Assembly (NCBI RefSeq): GCF_030687145.1
Contig: NZ_CP117460.1
Location: 3,968,001 to 4,032,000, forward strand
Length of the DNA stretch: 64,000 nt
Reading direction: 5' to 3'
Source: Pseudomonas sp. FP1742
GTDB lineage: Bacteria > Pseudomonadota > Gammaproteobacteria > Pseudomonadales > Pseudomonadaceae
The first letter of the stretch is position 1. Every line of letters begins with the position of its first letter. Below are positions 921 through 60,956 of this stretch, piece after piece. The notes beneath the pieces are model-generated. The model had not been told where the DNA came from, ran no database searches, and saw only the letters and a list, made by a program, of their open reading frames with translations. Position numbers and translations under genes: made by a program.

Positions 921-1991
921 TCAGAACTCTAAAACAGCGGGTCCAGGCTCGATCATCCGAACCGAAGCGGTGCTAGGGCCATGTCGATAATTCAGAGGCT
1001 CCAGAGACACAGACAAGCCAGTTGAAACCGAACGTTCAATGGCAAACAGAACCCTGAGGTCCGCCAGTCCCTCCTCTCCGTCGTCTATTGGCTTGGCCCC
1101 ATCCTCGATGCACCCAGAGAAATAAGCGATCTGGCCTGCAAAATGATCGAAATGCGGAAACTCGGTTCGCTTAAAGCCTGTCGAAGTCTCTGTTTTCATG
1201 GTCATCGGTGTTTCGAAGCGGAACCCTGGCTCCATGCTTAACACGCCCTTTGTACCTACGACTCGATAGATGTCGACAGGGTGTGCAGCAAAACTGCAAT
1301 AGAATTGCGCCAAGCGATTGCCTGGAAAGCGCATTGTCACTGCGATCGAATCGGATATTTCCAAGAAACGAGGATCGCTTTCATCCCGACAACCGATGGC
1401 CTGAACTTCAACTGGCTCTGACGCAAATACGTGACGCGCCGCGTTGATGCAATAGATGCCGATGTCCTGAAGCGGCCCCCCCCAATGCTCCAGGTTTAAG
1501 CGATGGTTATCCGCATCGGACTGAAAACTGAAAGTCGCGGAGAAAAATCGGGGCTCACCAATAGCGCCCGAACGTATCGACTTGAGTGCTTCAACAGTGC
1601 CAATGTCGTGGTGCAAACGGTAGCTGGTCATTAGTAATTTGCCGGATTGTTGCGAAGCCCTAATCATGGCCTCGGCATCTGGCAGTGATGTGGCCATCGG
1701 TTTTTCAACCATAACGTGCTTGCCATGTTTCAAAGCGCTGATCGCGAACGAGGCGTGCAACGGGTTAGGCACGGCGATGTAGACAGCATCAATCAGATCA
1801 CCTCTAACCAACTCATCAAAATCTTCATACGAGACCACCATTTTGATGCCATATTGCGCGGCGATCTGTCTGGAGCTCTCTATTTTTCCAGTTACGAGTG
1901 CCGTTACAACAGAATTACCGGTCAACACCACCGCCGGCAGAAATGCTTTTTTCGATATCCAACCCAACCCTACCACGGCATACCTAATCAT
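921..1991 (-). CDS. Gfo/Idh/MocA family oxidoreductase
   Basis: A 356-residue NAD(P)-dependent sugar or polyol dehydrogenase-like protein. The N-terminal Rossmann fold begins at once (MIRYAVVGLGWIS), and the family EKP motif appears as VMVEKPMA around residue 95. The C-terminal alpha/beta domain follows in the usual order. The start has GAGAGG about 5 nt upstream. It resembles the xylose dehydrogenase/glucose-fructose oxidoreductase branch, but the substrate cannot be read from sequence. It is the last of three tandem Gfo/Idh genes; 96 nt separate it from the previous one. Base composition is more AT-rich than the gcl/glc genes, which fits acquisition. Confidence 0.88.
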   Translation of the reverse strand: MIRYAVVGLGWISKKAFLPAVVLTGNSVVTALVTGKIESSRQIAAQYGIKMVVSYEDFDELVRGDLIDAVYIAVPNPLHASFAISALKHGKHVMVEKPMATSLPDAEAMIRASQQSGKLLMTSYRLHHDIGTVEALKSIRSGAIGEPRFFSATFSFQSDADNHRLNLEHWGGPLQDIGIYCINAARHVFASEPVEVQAIGCRDESDPRFLEISDSIAVTMRFPGNRLAQFYCSFAAHPVDIYRVVGTKGVLSMEPGFRFETPMTMKTETSTGFKRTEFPHFDHFAGQIAYFSGCIEDGAKPIDDGEEGLADLRVLFAIERSVSTGLSVSLEPLNYRHGPSTASVRMIEPGPAVLEF

Positions 1992-2087
1992 CTTCGCCTC
2001 TCGTTATTTCTGATGATCGATTGCCACGAGATAGCCCAAGTAACGGCACGCAGCATGAATAAAATAACAGGCCACACAGCAGCACTT

Positions 2088-3062
2088 TTACGAATAAAAT
2101 GAAGGACACGTGGGCAAACACAGGTGAATTATGGAGTCCTTGCCACCTTCAATAATCTGTTCAGCCACTGCGGTGGTGATGTAACCGTCCCAGGCACTGG
2201 CGCCTTCGTTGGACTCGCCAGTCTGAATCGTCTTTATCCACGCCTTAGTCTGAGCTTTGTAGGCCTCGACAAACCGTGGAACCCAATAGGTGGGATAGGA
2301 CAACATCTGCTGCCCTGTTTTATGTACAACTCTTGAGGGCATGGATGGCAGGGAGGCAACACCGTCCTCACCTACAATCTCCGCATGAACGTGATAGCCG
2401 TACCGGCAATTCATGTTGATTTCGTTTGTAATGATGACGTCATCGCTGGTACATACTTCGATTACCAGTGGATCCCCCTTTTGCGTCGAGGTGACCCTTA
2501 CCGTCGTAAGTTCGGTATTCAACAGCCAGCGCGTGATGTCTATCTCATGGACAAAGGCATTAGTAATGGACATGGAACCTGTCATCCACTCTGGGGCCAC
2601 CGGGTTACGGTGAACATTGTGGACAATACGCGGTTTGCCAATTTCACCACTATCAAAACTTTCCTTGAGCAACTGATAGGCCAAGTCGAACCTGCGCATA
2701 TAGCCAACTTGCACCAGACGCTGGGCCTTGGACATTTCCAGTTCAACGATAGCTAATGCCTGCTTCGCGGTCGCTGCCAAAGGCTTTTCGCACAACACAG
2801 GCTTGCCCACCTCCAGACAGGCCATGACTAACTCCGCATGAGTAACATCAGGCGAGGCGATCAATACCGCATCAATATTATTGGAGCGAATCATCTCCAG
2901 CGGATCGGAATAGATCGGCGAGCCGCAAGCCGCCATAGCCGCCTTTCGAGGGTCTGCATCACAGACACCCGCGAGTATCGCACCCGGGGCGTTCTCTCGC
3001 AGGATCCTCGCGTGCTCGCTTCCCATCACTCCCGCCCCCACCAATCCAACTGCAACGCTCAT
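2088..3062 (-). CDS. Gfo/Idh/MocA family oxidoreductase, inositol 2-dehydrogenase-like
   Basis: A 324-residue protein with the dinucleotide-binding motif GLVGAGVMGSEHA at residues 6-18 and VLCEKPLA (catalytic-region EKP) near residue 95. The segment VGYMRRFD and the following FVHEIDITRWLL match the inositol 2-dehydrogenase (IolG) branch, which oxidises the axial hydroxyl of myo-inositol or related polyols with NAD+. No other iol gene is nearby, so the substrate is open. The C-terminus (after VAEQIIEGGKDS) ends in an unusual Cys/Pro/Ser-rich tail and may be altered. A terminator-like hairpin at 3111-3140 separates it from the upstream gene, so it may have its own promoter in the short gap. Confidence 0.87.
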   Translation of the reverse strand: MSVAVGLVGAGVMGSEHARILRENAPGAILAGVCDADPRKAAMAACGSPIYSDPLEMIRSNNIDAVLIASPDVTHAELVMACLEVGKPVLCEKPLAATAKQALAIVELEMSKAQRLVQVGYMRRFDLAYQLLKESFDSGEIGKPRIVHNVHRNPVAPEWMTGSMSITNAFVHEIDITRWLLNTELTTVRVTSTQKGDPLVIEVCTSDDVIITNEINMNCRYGYHVHAEIVGEDGVASLPSMPSRVVHKTGQQMLSYPTYWVPRFVEAYKAQTKAWIKTIQTGESNEGASAWDGYITTAVAEQIIEGGKDSIIHLCLPTCPSFYS

Positions 3063-3110
3063 TTGTCAGTCTCCTTGGAAACTTTTATATGCATCGTTAT
3101 TAGATGTTGA

Positions 3111-3140
3111 AAAATGGGTGTGAACGCTCACACCCATTTT
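3111..3140 (-). terminator. Rho-independent terminator of the 3151-4314 gene
   Basis: A perfect 13-bp stem (3111-3123 with 3128-3140) with a 4-nt loop lies 11 nt after the stop codon at 3151. Read on the minus strand it ends in a run of five T. It should end transcription coming from the large cluster upstream, separating the two downstream Gfo/Idh genes. Confidence 0.8.
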
Positions 3141-3150
3141 CGGTGCAGCT

Positions 3151-4314
3151 TTACACAGCCGGTTGTTCGATCTCTTCCCAGTTGCCACTCACGCCCGAGT
3201 TCAAGATCGCTTCAGCGATGCGTTCGATCTGCAAACCATCGTCGAAGTTAGGCGATGCAGGCGCTTTTTCCGCAATGGCTTTGAGGAAGTTGTACCACTC
3301 GATGGATTTCACATCGATGTAGCCCTGGCCCATACCGGCCACCGGCCACAGCTTGTCGCCAAATGGCTGATGCGGACCCGAGTAGATAGTACGGAAGCCG
3401 AAGGTGTCAGCCGGATCATCCGCGAAAGCCACGCGCAGTTCATTCAAACGCTGGTAATCGAATGCGATTGAGCCCTTGGTACCATGGATCTCGAAGCCCA
3501 GCTGGTTGTGATGGCCCCAAGCATTTCGGGTCACTTCGATGGTGCCATAGACACCATTAGTAAAATGGATCATGGTCAGGGCGGCGTCATCGACATCCAC
3601 CTGGCCCTTCTCGGAAGAAGCTTGACCGGCCGGACCAAAGAAACGACCTGCAGGCAATGGACGCTCAGTAATGAAGGTCTTCACGATGGAGTTTACAGAA
3701 GCGAATTCACCCACCAGCAAGCGTGCTGCGTCGATCACATGGGTACCGATATCGCCAAGAGTGCCCGAACCCGCTTTGGCCTTGTTGAAGCGCCACGACA
3801 GAGGAGTTGATGGATCTGCACCCCAATCCTGGAGGTAGTAACCACGGAAGCTTAGGATTTTGCCGATGCGGCCTTCATCAATCAGTTTCTTGGCCATCTG
3901 GATGGCCGGAGTATGACGATAGTTATAGGAAACCATGGTCACCACGCCGGTCTTCTGCGCAGCCGCTTGCATTTTCTCGGCGTCAGCGACGGTCATGGCC
4001 ATCGGTTTTTCGCACATGACATGCTTGCCGGCCAATGCAGCAGCAATGGCGATTTCAGCGTGAGTATCGTTAGGCGTACAGATATCGACGATATCGACAT
4101 CAGGGCGATTAATCACATCGCGCCAATCGGTCGTGTATTCCGCAAAACCATATTGCTTTGCAGCGTCACGGGCCAGCTCTTCATCGATATCGACGATAAT
4201 TTTGCGCTCGATCTCTACAGGTGCGCCAAACAAAATCGGAACCACAGCGGTCGCGATTGAGTGCGCTTTACCCATAAATCCGGTGCCGATAAGTGCTACA
4301 TTGTATTTTTTCAC
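3151..4314 (-). CDS. Gfo/Idh/MocA family oxidoreductase
   Basis: A 387-residue oxidoreductase with N-terminal KKYNVALIGTGFMGKAHS, the EKP motif in HVMCEKPMAMT (about residue 100) and the SYNYRHTPA and WRFNKAKAGSGTLGDIGTHVIDAA segments typical of the larger members of the family. A GTG at 4312-4314 is the likely start because GGAGGGA lies 9 nt upstream; a GTG three codons earlier (4323) sits too close to that site. It is 112 nt downstream of the biotin carboxylase gene and is closed by a strong terminator. NAD(P)-dependent oxidation of a sugar-like compound is likely; the substrate is unknown. Confidence 0.88.
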   Translation of the reverse strand: MKKYNVALIGTGFMGKAHSIATAVVPILFGAPVEIERKIIVDIDEELARDAAKQYGFAEYTTDWRDVINRPDVDIVDICTPNDTHAEIAIAAALAGKHVMCEKPMAMTVADAEKMQAAAQKTGVVTMVSYNYRHTPAIQMAKKLIDEGRIGKILSFRGYYLQDWGADPSTPLSWRFNKAKAGSGTLGDIGTHVIDAARLLVGEFASVNSIVKTFITERPLPAGRFFGPAGQASSEKGQVDVDDAALTMIHFTNGVYGTIEVTRNAWGHHNQLGFEIHGTKGSIAFDYQRLNELRVAFADDPADTFGFRTIYSGPHQPFGDKLWPVAGMGQGYIDVKSIEWYNFLKAIAEKAPASPNFDDGLQIERIAEAILNSGVSGNWEEIEQPAV

Positions 4315-4426: not shown

Positions 4427-6142
4427 TTAAGGGAGAACGATGTCCGCCAGAAGCTGGCCTATTGAAACCATCGTTCCCGCCGAAACTTTCTGTGTGATCA
4501 CGCCATCACACGCTGCAACAACCAATGTTTCCATTTTCATCGCTTCAATCAGTGCAACCCCATCACCCTTTTTAATGGGCTCACCATCTTTAACCAGCCA
4601 CTGTTGCAAAGTACCTGGAATCGGCGCAGTGACACCGCCTTCGCTGCTGTAGGCAGGCGCAGTATTCGACGAAGCAGAAACAGAGGCTCCGTTGAACAAT
4701 GACAGTGGAATACCCAATTCATGGCGCTTGCCATCTATCTCGATGAAACACCGGTGCAAGCCGGAGTTCACGGGGTCAATGCGCGTATTTGTGGGTACAC
4801 CCTTGAACTCGGTTTCAATCCAGTTGGTGTAAACGCCGAACTCGGCATCGCCGTTGAAACAGGCTTCTTCCAATACCGCCCGATGGAATGGCAGTACCGA
4901 CGCCACGCCCTCGATAGTGAATTCCTTCAGCGCACGGCGTGCGCGAGTTATTGCTTGCTCGCGGGTGGCGCCCGTGACAATCAGTTTCGCCATCATCGAG
5001 TCGTAAAGGCCCGGAATGACGGAGCCCGCCTCCACCCCGGATTCGATGCGCACGCCGGGGCCCGACGGAGCACGGAACACATTGATTCGCCCTGGCGTCG
5101 GCAGAAACCCTCTACCCGGATCTTCAGCGTTGATACGAAACTCAAGAGCGTGGCCGCGCAGTTCCGGTGCCTTAGTAATCGACAACGGCAAGCCGTCAGC
5201 GATGCGCAGTTGCTCAACAACGATGTCCACGCCAGTGGTTTCTTCGGTGACAGGGTGTTCCACTTGCAGCCGGGTGTTCACTTCCAGAAACGAGATTGTG
5301 CCGTTCTGCGACAGCAGAAACTCGACCGTGCCGGCCCCGGTGTAGCCTGCGTAGGCACAGATTGCCTGGGCCGCCTCATGAATCCGACGACTCTGGTCAG
5401 CTGTGATAAACGGAGCGGGCGCCTCTTCCACCAGCTTCTGGTTGCGGCGCTGCAGCGAACAATCGCGCGTTCCCAAGACCAGGATATTGCCGTGCTGGTC
5501 TGCGAGAACCTGCGCTTCGATATGCCGCGGTCGCTCAAGGAACTGCTCGGCGTAGCATTCGCCGCGACCGAACGCCTCGATGGCTTCACGCACCGCCGAG
5601 GTGAATAGGTCACCCACCTCCTCCAGCTTGTACGCAACTTTCATTCCGCGACCGCCGCCGCCAAACGCGGCTTTAATCGCCAAAGGCAAACCCGCTTCTC
5701 TGGCGAACGCTATAGCCTCGGCGGCATTCGCCAATGGACCTAGCGTACCTTTGACCAAGGGTGCACCGACTGCCTGAGCAATGCGTCGGGCTTCAACCTT
5801 GTCACCCAGTGCCTTGATCACCGAAGGCGTAGGCCCGACCCATATCAGCCCCGCATCGATAACGGCCTGGGCAAACTCGGCGCGCTCGGAAAGAAAGCCA
5901 TAACCCGGGTGAACAGCATCAGCACCGGCGCGCTTGGCGACGTCGATGATTTTCGAAATATTAAGGTAGGTGTCGGCCGGCTTGCCCGGACCGAGGCCAT
6001 AGGCCTCTGGTGCGAGCTGGACGTGCAGCGACTCAGCGTCCGCATCGGAATAGATGGCCACCGACTCGATGCCATAATCACGCGCGGCACGCATGATACG
6101 AATGGCGATTTCACCACGGTTAGCGATCAACAACTTTTTCAT
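4427..6142 (-). CDS. Biotin carboxylase with C-terminal biotinyl domain (acetyl-CoA/5-oxoproline-locus carboxylase type)
   Basis: A 571-residue fusion. Residues 1-450 are an ATP-dependent biotin carboxylase ([24 protein letters not shown]-grasp loop, [14 protein letters not shown]). A linker is followed by a biotinyl domain whose motif EAMKM puts the biotinylated lysine at about residue 536. It would carboxylate its own biotin using ATP and bicarbonate; the partner carboxyltransferase is not in this window. Its start overlaps the stop of the PxpB-PxpC fusion by 1 nt (TAATG), so the two are translationally coupled. Biotin carboxylase genes are often found with YcsF/KipI/KipA genes. Which acceptor is carboxylated is not evident. 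Confidence 0.92.
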
Positions 6143-8901: not shown

Positions 8902-9351
8902 TCAACCGACTCGTACCGAAACCTTGGTCTTGATCGAGTTGGCAATGAAACATCCCTTGTGTGCACGGTGATGCAGTCGCTCAAGCGCTTGGGCATCAGG
9001 TCGTTTTTCAGAGCTGAACCCGACCTGTGGATTGAGGGTGATTTCCGATACCCAGAAGCCGCCTTCATCGCGTTTGCTGACCACACCCACCGCGTTGTCG
9101 GTGTACGTGCTGACCGCATACCCCTGCCCTTCGGCAAGCGCCAGGAAATACAACATATGGCAACTGGCGAGTGCACTGACCAACAGTTGCTCGGGATCGG
9201 CCTTCTCTACAGCCCCAAGGTATTCCACAGCCGCCGAGGCCGGAATCTTCACGTCAGGACTGACGTGCACCACCAGGTCACGACTGTAGGTTTCCGGTTT
9301 GGTGGAGTGCGCGGCGGCGCACCACTCCACCCTTACGACATGCTCAGACAT
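8902..9351 (-). CDS. OsmC family peroxiredoxin-like protein
   Basis: A 149-residue OsmC/Ohr-family protein. The two family cysteine regions are visible: ALASCHMLYFLALA in the middle and HRAHKGCFIANS near the C-terminus; the pair reduces organic hydroperoxides by thiol chemistry in characterised members. The PEQLLVSALASCH phrase marks the OsmC rather than the Ohr branch. It is part of the minus-strand run between ABM and DUF1445 genes, hinting that substrate turnover yields peroxides or other electrophiles. Confidence 0.9.
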   Translation of the reverse strand: MSEHVVRVEWCAAAHSTKPETYSRDLVVHVSPDVKIPASAAVEYLGAVEKADPEQLLVSALASCHMLYFLALAEGQGYAVSTYTDNAVGVVSKRDEGGFWVSEITLNPQVGFSSEKRPDAQALERLHHRAHKGCFIANSIKTKVSVRVG

Positions 9352-58996: not shown

Positions 58997-59127
58997 AGAA
59001 GCCACGTCGCATTACACAGCGATTTCAGCCAATATAACAACCTTATAAGTCGATACTCAACCGTTAAGGATGTTCATGTCAACGGGTCTTTGCTCAACCA
59101 TTCGGGTTGAACTGGAGAACTCATCAC

Positions 59128-59469
59128 TTGGCACATAAACATCCAACCCAAGCCCAAATCGGGCGCATGATCGCGAAGCACCGCACCGAGCGTAATCTGA
59201 CTCAGGAAGAGGTGGCTGAACGCTTGGGGATCGGCAGCGAAGCCATATCGCGTCTAGAGCGGGGTGTGGTGGAGCTTTCCGTGGTCAAGCTGATGCAGTT
59301 AGCGGATATTTTCGACTGCCGGATGGATGAACTGCTGACGGAGTCGAGTAATCGTCCCAATGACCAGGGCCAGATGATCGCGGGTCTGCTGAACGGTCTG
59401 AAAGAAAGCGACCGTGCCTTTATCCTGGCGACCGTCGAACGATTGGCTACTCATCTCGCCAACAAATGA
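59128..59469 (+). CDS. XRE family helix-turn-helix regulator
   Basis: A 113-residue Cro/CI-type protein: IGRMIAKHRTERNLTQEEVAERLGIGSEAISRLERGVVELSVVKLMQLADIFDCRMDELL is the whole XRE domain; the C-terminal helix (AGLLNGLKESDRAFILATVERLATHLANK) may dimerise. I take a TTG at 59128 with GGAG 10 nt upstream; TTG 59107 or ATG 59167 are alternatives. It probably controls ICE genes from its position ahead of the structured region. Confidence 0.88.
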   Translation: MAHKHPTQAQIGRMIAKHRTERNLTQEEVAERLGIGSEAISRLERGVVELSVVKLMQLADIFDCRMDELLTESSNRPNDQGQMIAGLLNGLKESDRAFILATVERLATHLANK

Positions 59470-60374
59470 GCTCATGCGCTCGCATTCGATATAGGGGCTT
59501 TTGAGGGGACGCTCTCTGCCTTGACGTCATCCCACCCTCTCTGCTGTAGTGCCTTGGGATCATCGCCAACGGCGACCCAAGACCGATGCGCTCCGGGTAG
59601 CTCGGTCGGACTCCTTGAGTTCGGAGCCTTCTCTTCTGCGGAATTTTATTCCCGCTTTGTGCTCGACCTGATCGCGGTGGCGGATGACCACTGTTGCCTC
59701 TACCAGGCAATAGCGGTCATCCGCTTCAGCGATCGTATTCAGTCCCGGAGCCCGCCGGAGAAACACTGGGCACCCTTTGTGCGCGGATGCGTGCCAGCAT
59801 GTTCCGACCCAGGCCACGACAAGGGTCGGTTGGCGAATCATGGCGCAGTCAAACCAAGTTTTGCGAGGAGCTTGTCGACTGCGTCAGACCGCCAAAGGTG
59901 GCTTTTCTGTTCCTCGCCTGGCACCCCGCCAGGCCCACTCTTCACTTTCTTCAGTCCAGTGACTGCCACTGTATTCCGGCCATAAAAAATTGGGTTGCAG
60001 CGTCTTGACGCTCCCCTGTGCCAGGCTTATACAAAGGGCGTGGTTCGCTGTCGTTGACAGCCCAGCCCAGGTAGCTTGAACCTTCAAGGCTACGCCACAT
60101 TCGTGGTGGTTTACCCAAGTGCGATCAGCATTCGGAAGCTCGCGCGGTTACCGCTTCAGCGGTGATGAATGCCCACTACCCCATGTTTGCGAACCACTAC
60201 CGCAGACGTTCCTCAGTTGCACCGTTATTCCGCCAGACGCATCGTTCTGATCATCATTGGCTTGCCGATGACGAGTCGTTCATCGCTCGCCTTCACCTTA
60301 CCCACCCTGACGGGGGCTCACTTCCCCGTCAGGGGCTGTGCGTCGCCGTTTTCCCTTGAAACAGGAGAACCACC
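59470..60374 (+). ncRNA. Candidate long structured RNA upstream of the DUF3577 gene
   Basis: This 905-nt stretch has no credible gene but an unusual number of strong stems: CTTGGG...CCCAAG with inner TCGCC/GGCGA (59553-59581), GACCGA/TCGGTC (59581-59607), a long helix with GCGGATGACC/GGTCATCCGC and inner TTGCC/GGCAA (59680-59724), itself enclosed by GATCGC/GCGATC to 59734, GCCTGGC/GCCAGGC (59916-59934), AGCGTC/GACGCT (59999-60012), GTAGCTTGAA with TTCAAGGCTAC (60071-60093), ACCGC/GCGGT enclosed by GCATTC/GAATGC (60130-60174), and CCCTGACGGGG/CCCCGTCAGGG (60305-60334). The last lies 40 nt before the DUF3577 start. Confidence 0.6.
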
Positions 60375-60956
60375 ATGGCCCACGCCAACCAATCCCAAGA
60401 AGCGACCACTTACTTCAACCTGCACACCGTCGGTATCGGCTACCTCAACCGTGTTCGTGAAGTACAAGTCCGCCGCGGCCAGCCATTCATGGCCTGCGAT
60501 ATCGCCGCCCTGCACGGTGCCACCGATGCCGTGGAGTACACCCGCTTCGACTGCAAGGTCGCTGGAGGCGAAGCTGAACGTTTGATTCGTCTCTATACGG
60601 ACGCCGTCAACGCCGAGAAAAAGGTCTTGCTGTCGTTCCGTATCGGCGATCTGTGGATCGATCCGTTTCTCTACGAGAAAGGCGAGAAACAAGGCCAACC
60701 GGGCGCCAGCCTGAAAGGTCGTTTGCTGTTCATCGACTGGATCAAGGTCAACGGCACGTTCGAGTACAAAGCGCCCGCCAGGCAGGAAGCAACAGCACCT
60801 GCTGAGCAAGCGCCAAACAGTGAGCCATCCCCACCATCGGCTGATGCCGAAGCTGAGGAGATCGAAACCCCAACAGAGGCTCGGGTCGAACCTGAATCTC
60901 CATCCACTCCCCGCACGGCTCGCCGTGATGCCACCCGTACCGTTCAGTCCGTCTGA
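60375..60956 (+). CDS. DUF3577 / STY4534 family ICE replication protein
   Basis: A 193-residue ICE backbone protein. Residues 1-125 form the conserved domain (TTYFNLHTVGIGYLNRVREVQVRRGQPFMACDIAALHGATDAVEYTRFDCKV...FYEKGEK-like LYEKGEKQGQPGASLKGRLLFIDWIKVNG). The C-terminal 65 residues are an Ala/Pro/Glu-rich tail. Databases describe the family as island replication-linked. AGGAG lies 7-8 nt before the ATG. It follows the long structured segment and is highly expressed-looking in codon use. Confidence 0.9.
   Translation: MAHANQSQEATTYFNLHTVGIGYLNRVREVQVRRGQPFMACDIAALHGATDAVEYTRFDCKVAGGEAERLIRLYTDAVNAEKKVLLSFRIGDLWIDPFLYEKGEKQGQPGASLKGRLLFIDWIKVNGTFEYKAPARQEATAPAEQAPNSEPSPPSADAEAEEIETPTEARVEPESPSTPRTARRDATRTVQSV

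Follow-up and report, generated by a model that had tools for sequence, protein, structure and literature searches.

A radC leader and a separate pseudoknotted noncoding-RNA gene as the probable content of a gene-free gap in a conjugative element of Pseudomonas

radC RNAs are typically found upstream of DNA-handling genes in mobile elements. The Frpo/ssi single-strand promoters of plasmid leading regions are structured and lie upstream of SSB-like and anti-restriction genes, and large ornate RNAs comprise families such as GOLLD, ROOL, HEARO and OLE. Weinberg 2010 (PMC2864571), in the part available to us, tabulates radC with marks that we read, under column heads lying outside that part, as covariation Y and cis-regulatory y. 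In the portion of PMC7657543 consulted, radC is named among the families whose database structure has no covarying pairs, and our literature searches on radC RNA and RF01754 returned no paper that assigns radC RNAs a tested job. Among the closest described systems is the sRNA PesA of PAPI-1 (P. aeruginosa PA14), known from work on virulence in that species. According to the sections of PMC5493400 at hand, PesA lies on the pilM2 strand, 3' of that gene, is about 260 nt long (the constructs imply 140 + 127 nt) and overlaps the 3' end of PA14_59370, within which a terminator was predicted. The same sections show it by Northern blot as a processed rather than a primary transcript, accompanied by longer bands, and describe its pairing with the pyocin S3 mRNA, for which a role is proposed.

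The locus analyzed here is a 905-nt gap (59470-60374) in the window, i.e. the whole stretch of 64,000 nucleotides of Pseudomonas sp. FP1742 that was examined. It separates a helix-turn-helix (HTH) gene (59107-59469, + strand; PF01381), which is not constant among relatives, from a DUF3577 gene (60375-60956, + strand; PF12101, E = 2.3e-51; NF040584) of the STY4534 family of ICE replication proteins. The HTH protein is weakly RstR-like, with a score below the RstR family cut-off. The surroundings are those of the core region of an integrative conjugative element of the PFGI-1 class, in the order ParA-like, ICE_PFGI_1 ParB, STY4528, PFL_4669, SSB, topoisomerase III, HTH, gap, DUF3577, RadC and PilL2. 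The AlphaFold model of the DUF3577 protein resembles OB-folds, for the most part those of SSBs: Foldseek returned two matches at E ≤ 0.001, a chain of the trypanosome RNA-editing complex (4e-4) and an SSB (1e-3, TM 0.43), and the ranks that followed these two were largely SSBs. With regard to DUF3577 as an RNA-binding factor, this ranking speaks neither for nor against RNA binding. Several relatives carry two DUF3577 domains within one frame.

A reading of the sequence alone had proposed a long structured noncoding RNA in this strongly folded, gene-free gap. The folding and the lack of a gene were borne out: compared with 20 dinucleotide shuffles, the folding energy of the 905 nt reached z = −8.8 on the + strand and −4.2 on the − strand, and a conserved protein frame, which would have spoken against an RNA, was not found. 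Ten frames of at least 40 aa lie wholly inside the gap, and they were open and in register in 2–8 of 18 aligned relatives (window counted), none in more than 8. Across 285 nt around the conserved core described below, each of the six frames was interrupted by stops in 11–18 of the 18 relatives. A protein-coding gene in the gap was rejected because no frame is kept open among these relatives. Part of the original proposal gave way, as the structured noncoding RNA stood with its compensatory changes and lack of a conserved frame, but the single 0.9-kb unit resolved into two. We consider it rather probable that the gap as a whole consists of a radC leader of the DUF3577 gene and a separate noncoding-RNA gene with a shared pseudoknot, and we are highly confident of the anatomy of the two RNA units.

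The downstream unit is a radC RNA (Rfam RF01754; 60030-60172, + strand), which scored 89.6 bits against a gathering threshold of 40, spans model positions 1–149 and covers 143 of the 905 gap nucleotides. It is the published DUF3577-linked motif that the sequence-only reading had raised as a candidate, and it was the only family with gathering-level Rfam matches in the window. A large ornate RNA, suggested as another candidate, found no support, with no gathering match to GOLLD, ROOL, HEARO or OLE in the window. A promoter-like pair (TTGACG-17 nt-TATACA; 60005-60033, + strand) is located directly ahead of the radC RNA, and similar pairs were seen by eye at the equivalent place in relatives. The previously noted 11-bp perfect hairpin is present in the sequence (60305-60315/60324-60334, + strand) between the radC RNA and the ribosome-binding site, with comparable hairpins in other radC leaders by eye. 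From 60005 onward the order is promoter-like pair, radC RNA, hairpin, ribosome-binding site and DUF3577 start.

Five radC RNAs occur in the genome that contains the window. For four of them the first downstream gene with a Pfam match encodes DUF3577, ArdC, an integrase and an integrase, respectively, and the fifth (L048) lies ahead of a 143-aa frame without a Pfam match. The second copy, 23 kb farther on, precedes an ArdC anti-restriction gene followed by a TraI_2 relaxase gene (L044:152-1114 and 1666-3387; genome 4052152-4055387). Among 18 relatives chosen for carrying DUF3577, 16 had radC matches, with up to 10 per genome.

The 3' domain of the radC RNAs forms a pseudoknot. In an alignment of 27 such domains, 161 of 162 cells were paired in each of two crossing helices, with many replaced pairs, 10 G.U and no A.C wobbles. 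When one side of a helix was slid as a control, 16–102 of 162 cells paired. The 27 sequences were retained from 30 examined (the window, 18 of the 20 matches of one search and 11 of the 75 matches of another) after removal of L061:7969, L055 and L058, a copy of L010. These two helices are absent from the structure line of the Rfam RF01754 model; we do not claim novelty for the pseudoknot.

Upstream of the radC leader, a conserved promoter-like pair, folded domains and an end hairpin outline a putative noncoding-RNA gene of about 390 nt with approximate limits ~59557-59945 (+ strand). The promoter-like pair (TTGACG-18 nt-TGTAGT; 59521-59550, + strand) has a conserved position in close relatives: a TTGAC-17/18-TGTAGT pair was found by script 211–219 nt ahead of the core in 16 of 18 of these and by eye in a 17th (L069), L056 being without it. 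In the clade of the window the pair is kept although the upstream gene varies (HTH gene or topB). A CATAAT, GATAAT or AATAAT box with a conserved 5' hairpin behind it was seen in other subfamilies (15 loci).

The first folded domain (59571-59630, + strand; GACCGA/TCGGTC + GCTCCG/CGGAGC) is a pseudoknot of the radC type, which was recognized with 32.5 bits (E = 8e-7) by model R2, built from radC 3' domains alone, including the window's own radC. In the 59 core loci searched, R2 matched upstream of the core in 20 at E ≤ 0.001 and in 29 at E ≤ 0.5, a level at which three off-target matches also occurred (E 0.06–0.21); 9 of the 59 gave weak matches only (E 0.003–0.11) and 30 gave none. Among the best 80 of 504 named DUF3577 loci, 54 had it. 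It is followed by hairpin T1 with a T-rich tail (59638-59659, + strand), identified by eye in the sequence and in relatives, which is a possible end of a short, PesA-like form. Judged by eye, the T1 loop of distant members and of those of the PAPI-1 type is YTGGT-like, and a T run is often present. Its TTGGT/CTGGT-type loop is kept in the distant L142-L147, L150 and L151 despite changed stem letters.

The long helix P0 ahead of the core (59666-59738, + strand) is present as a self-complementary match and includes the helix reported earlier at 59670-59734. In 76 distinct relatives, a set to which L150 and L151 were added by hand for the P0 fold and for the AGGTGG box described below, the 100 nt before the core had a mean z of −5.9, with 72 of 76 below −2. 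The longest helix comprised on average 26 pairs vs 12.6 in shuffles, and its letters are quite different among the relatives.

The conserved core (59740-59834, + strand) consists of P1 with an H-type pseudoknot (CCGG GCCC CCGG .. GGGC), hairpin P3 (loop GGAT) and hairpin P4 (loop with GCCACGA); it scored 114.3 bits with model R1, the window being one of the 12 sequences in that model. A distant search brought out 59726-59832 as a second conserved segment, matched by Tistrella, P. aeruginosa and P. veronii records. Beyond the core, an AGGTGG/GGGTGG box lies inside a short hairpin and is followed by CTTTTCTGTT (59889-59901, + strand; generic terminator scan). AGGTGG occurred within 90 nt after the core in 45 of the 76 relatives, in two of them at an odd place, and most others showed GGGTGG by eye. 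Hairpin T2 (GCCTGGC/GCCAGGC; 59916-59934, + strand), recognized by eye, is the probable 3' end, and hairpins occupy the equivalent place in relatives, by eye for example in L032 (GCCTGGCGT/ACGCCAGGC + TTCTTTTTC). The generic promoter and terminator scan flagged neither of the promoter-like pairs (59521, 60005), nor T1 or T2; the case for a separate gene therefore rests on conservation. The terminator scan flagged two sites (1.0 expected), namely the hairpin at 59889 with its T-rich tail and one on the opposite strand.

Rfam at E ≤ 5 gave no match over the core, and RF01754 was absent from both the gathering-level and the E ≤ 5 lists over 59557-59940. Matches to other Rfam families were weak plant-microRNA (on P0) and sRNA look-alikes, far below thresholds. 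Literature searches of titles and opening abstracts, with subscription journals and supplements outside their scope, returned no description of the core.

Compensatory changes in homologous gaps, named in advance as evidence for an RNA, were found in the core as well as in the radC pseudoknot. A loose search for the core gave 93 matches, of which 86 (E ≤ 1e-6, 86 of 92 sources) entered the pair count as 74 distinct cores; the model to which they were aligned contained P1, P3 and P4 and lacked the pseudoknot. Over P1, the pseudoknot, P3 and P4, 97.9% of the cells were standard pairs. Two-sided changes were seen in 16 of the 22 pairs and amounted to 118 cells vs 24 in shuffles. None of 500 shuffles was equally good in the pairing statistic, which is inflated by the relatedness of the sequences, and slid versions paired in 28–45%. 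Distant relatives rebuild the core pseudoknot with other letters, such as ACTC/GAGT (L012), CCTAA/TTAGG (L151) and CCCAA/TTGGG.

At the variable pairs of 30 non-redundant cores, G.U was far more frequent than A.C (51 vs 3; p = 3e-12, indicative only), which points to folding of the + strand. One pair of P3 is invariably U-G (74 of 74 cores). By folding energy the two strands could not be distinguished: for 395 nt from six relatives, z ranged from −4.1 to −7.9 on the + strand and from −1.8 to −7.5 on the − strand, which was the lower one in two.

Among 398 genomes of Pseudomonadaceae, the family to which the window belongs, model R1 detected the core in 74, with one match in 60 of these 74 and two or three in the other 14. 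In a sample across the phylum, 8 of 398 genomes had matches: four belonged to the same family, two to other families (54 and 48 bits), and two matches were weak (25–28 bits). DUF3577 was present in 44 of 198 genomes, 40 of which were core-positive. Two of the four exceptions, G041 and G012, had a distant core on a locus-only search (E 2e-4 and 9e-4), and G196 was core-positive yet outside the 44. In low-scoring members (37–46 bits), the core and the DUF3577 gene were 31 kb (G004) or 8 kb (G065) apart or on different contigs (G134). A contig labeled Streptomyces sp. (L170, NZ_JAHHIU010000306.1) carries a DUF3577 gene 96% like that of the window and a core of 116.6 bits; this contig is probably contamination with Pseudomonas DNA.

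Among the best 80 of 504 named DUF3577 loci, 70 had the core, always upstream and co-directional. In L171, L172 and L179 other DNA takes the place of the noncoding RNA, with the radC leader and the DUF3577 gene retained, and the core of L176, which is counted among the 70, is damaged (31 bits), its radC leader and DUF3577 gene remaining. These four loci are natural decay variants. Two further core-less loci were searched by blast, which returned weak hits for L219 and no hit for L225. Within the stretch around the core, 32 of 40 core loci had a radC RNA downstream in the same orientation, none had one upstream, and 8 had no radC match; the spacing between core and radC was ~190 nt in the window and many relatives. 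Up to 1 kb upstream of 86 core loci, we found the 3' part of topB in 57, a relative of the HTH gene in 11 (both in one) and neither in 19.

The PAPI-1-like plasmid pY89 (L010) allowed a comparison with PesA. Its −10 box lies at 5646-5651 and the T1 tail runs to ~5923, where an RNA of 267 nt with its start at 5658 would reach 5924; a frame on the − strand terminates at 5864. The core follows at 5986-6091, and the DUF3577 gene begins at 9156, 3 kb away and with other genes between. The 5' half of the PAPI-1 counterpart thus fits PesA in position and length, an identity suggested via pY89 rather than the PA14 sequence. If it is right, the front half of the noncoding RNA corresponds to a proven RNA, and the core may sit in the longer bands. 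On the same plasmid, a 177-nt hypothetical frame (L010:8518-8694) bears a PLSDB OXA beta-lactamase call, which looks false.

How the two units would act together is more tentative. Both the radC leader and the noncoding RNA carry the radC-type pseudoknot, and because of this we put forward, as a possibility short of an expectation, that they bind a common factor. The shared pseudoknot would be the binding site for this putative factor, and the noncoding RNA would titrate it or report on its level. It might thereby tune the radC-led genes needed on arrival of the element, i.e. those for SSB-like DUF3577, ArdC anti-restriction proteins and integrases. We favor control of establishment because radC leaders precede genes that an element would require soon after its arrival. 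A wider version, more speculative still, is an element-wide RNA regulon in which a single master noncoding RNA has a pseudoknot for binding one factor in common with many radC leaders and thereby sets the time at which the establishment genes (SSB-like, anti-restriction, integrase) are switched on, for example when the element enters a new cell. In that case PesA would be the short form of the master RNA and its pyocin effect a side role. CsrA was considered as an element-borne partner, and no CsrA-family gene is located near the examined stretch of the element; the genome has CsrA genes at three places, 4.26, 4.85 and 5.06 Mb, vs 3.97–4.03 Mb for the window.

Among the alternatives, a base-pairing sRNA with chromosomal mRNA targets, as proposed for PesA and pyocin S3, survives best but is improbable. 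It has the published RNA-RNA work on PesA behind it (PMC5493400, as far as consulted). However, the conserved feature is the structure, which extends across genera and to two genomes of other families (48–54 bits), and a test of 30 loci for cognate pairing between core and radC leader gave no signal (mean percentile 0.54, p = 0.18), the leader being roughly cut as the 300 nt before the DUF3577 match.

We regard a single DUF3577 leader spanning all 0.9 kb as quite unlikely. The co-directional parts and their recurrent spacing would suit such a leader, but a second promoter-like pair stands directly ahead of radC, the upstream RNA is replaced in L171, L172 and L179 while the radC leader and gene stay, and the core and the DUF3577 gene are separated by intervening genes in pY89. 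One long RNA is disfavored because of this second pair and of the loci in which the parts are separated or one is lost. The earlier suggestion of a regulatory leader fits the radC RNA ahead of DUF3577, and the ~390-nt unit upstream of it reads as a separate gene.

There is a similarly small chance that the RNA controls or primes replication of the excised element. The single core match in most positive genomes and the location between topB/SSB and a gene named for an ICE replication protein are in line with such a function, but replication of ICEclc is reported to involve oriT1 and TraI (PMC6561031, in the part consulted). Least likely of all is a structured single-stranded DNA element (STAXI-like, an Frpo-like single-strand promoter or an oriT), for which the neighboring SSB, topoisomerase III and ArdC genes, the multicopy radC elements, the similar folding energy of both strands and the STAXI passage in PMC2864571, which proposes single-stranded DNA for a similar setting, can be cited, but against which stand the + strand's tolerance of G.U and hardly of A.C, which speaks against folding of the opposite strand, the invariant U-G pair in P3 and the Northern-blot evidence for RNA from the presumed PAPI-1 counterpart of the 5' half (PMC5493400, sections at hand).

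With a radC leader and a separate noncoding-RNA gene as the preferred reading, the locus can be set against the known systems. It resembles STAXI, as described in the accessible part of PMC2864571, in having pseudoknots near SSB, topoisomerase and anti-restriction genes. STAXI pseudoknots, however, come in two or three tandem repeats, whereas here each locus has one core, with G.U pairs on the + strand, and each of the 86 sources gave one core match at E ≤ 1e-6. A folded template strand of the Frpo/ssi kind needs the opposite wobble asymmetry from that observed, which (51 G.U vs 3 A.C) points, albeit indirectly, to the coding-sense strand; a template-strand promoter is thus disfavored, though folding energy leaves the strands unseparated.

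With radC RNAs the noncoding RNA has the 3' pseudoknot domain and the type of element in common. It differs from them in lacking the radC 5' half and a match to RF01754, in its core without Rfam match, in occurring usually once per locus and in standing directly ahead of no gene. PesA is similar through the layout in pY89, with a position 3' of pilM, a −10 box, a T1 hairpin with a T-rich tail and a length of ~267 nt. In contrast to PesA, the RNA of the window follows the HTH gene and topB rather than pilM, and T1 would end it at only ~100 nt; in pY89 the conserved core lies just past the PesA 3' end, and PMC5493400, in the sections consulted, does not describe PesA as a structured family. If the identity holds, the work on PesA may have covered just the front half of a conserved locus. 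A widespread pseudoknotted RNA in conjugative elements would then link radC RNAs with PesA and provide a concrete system in which the control of establishment by RNA can be put to the test.
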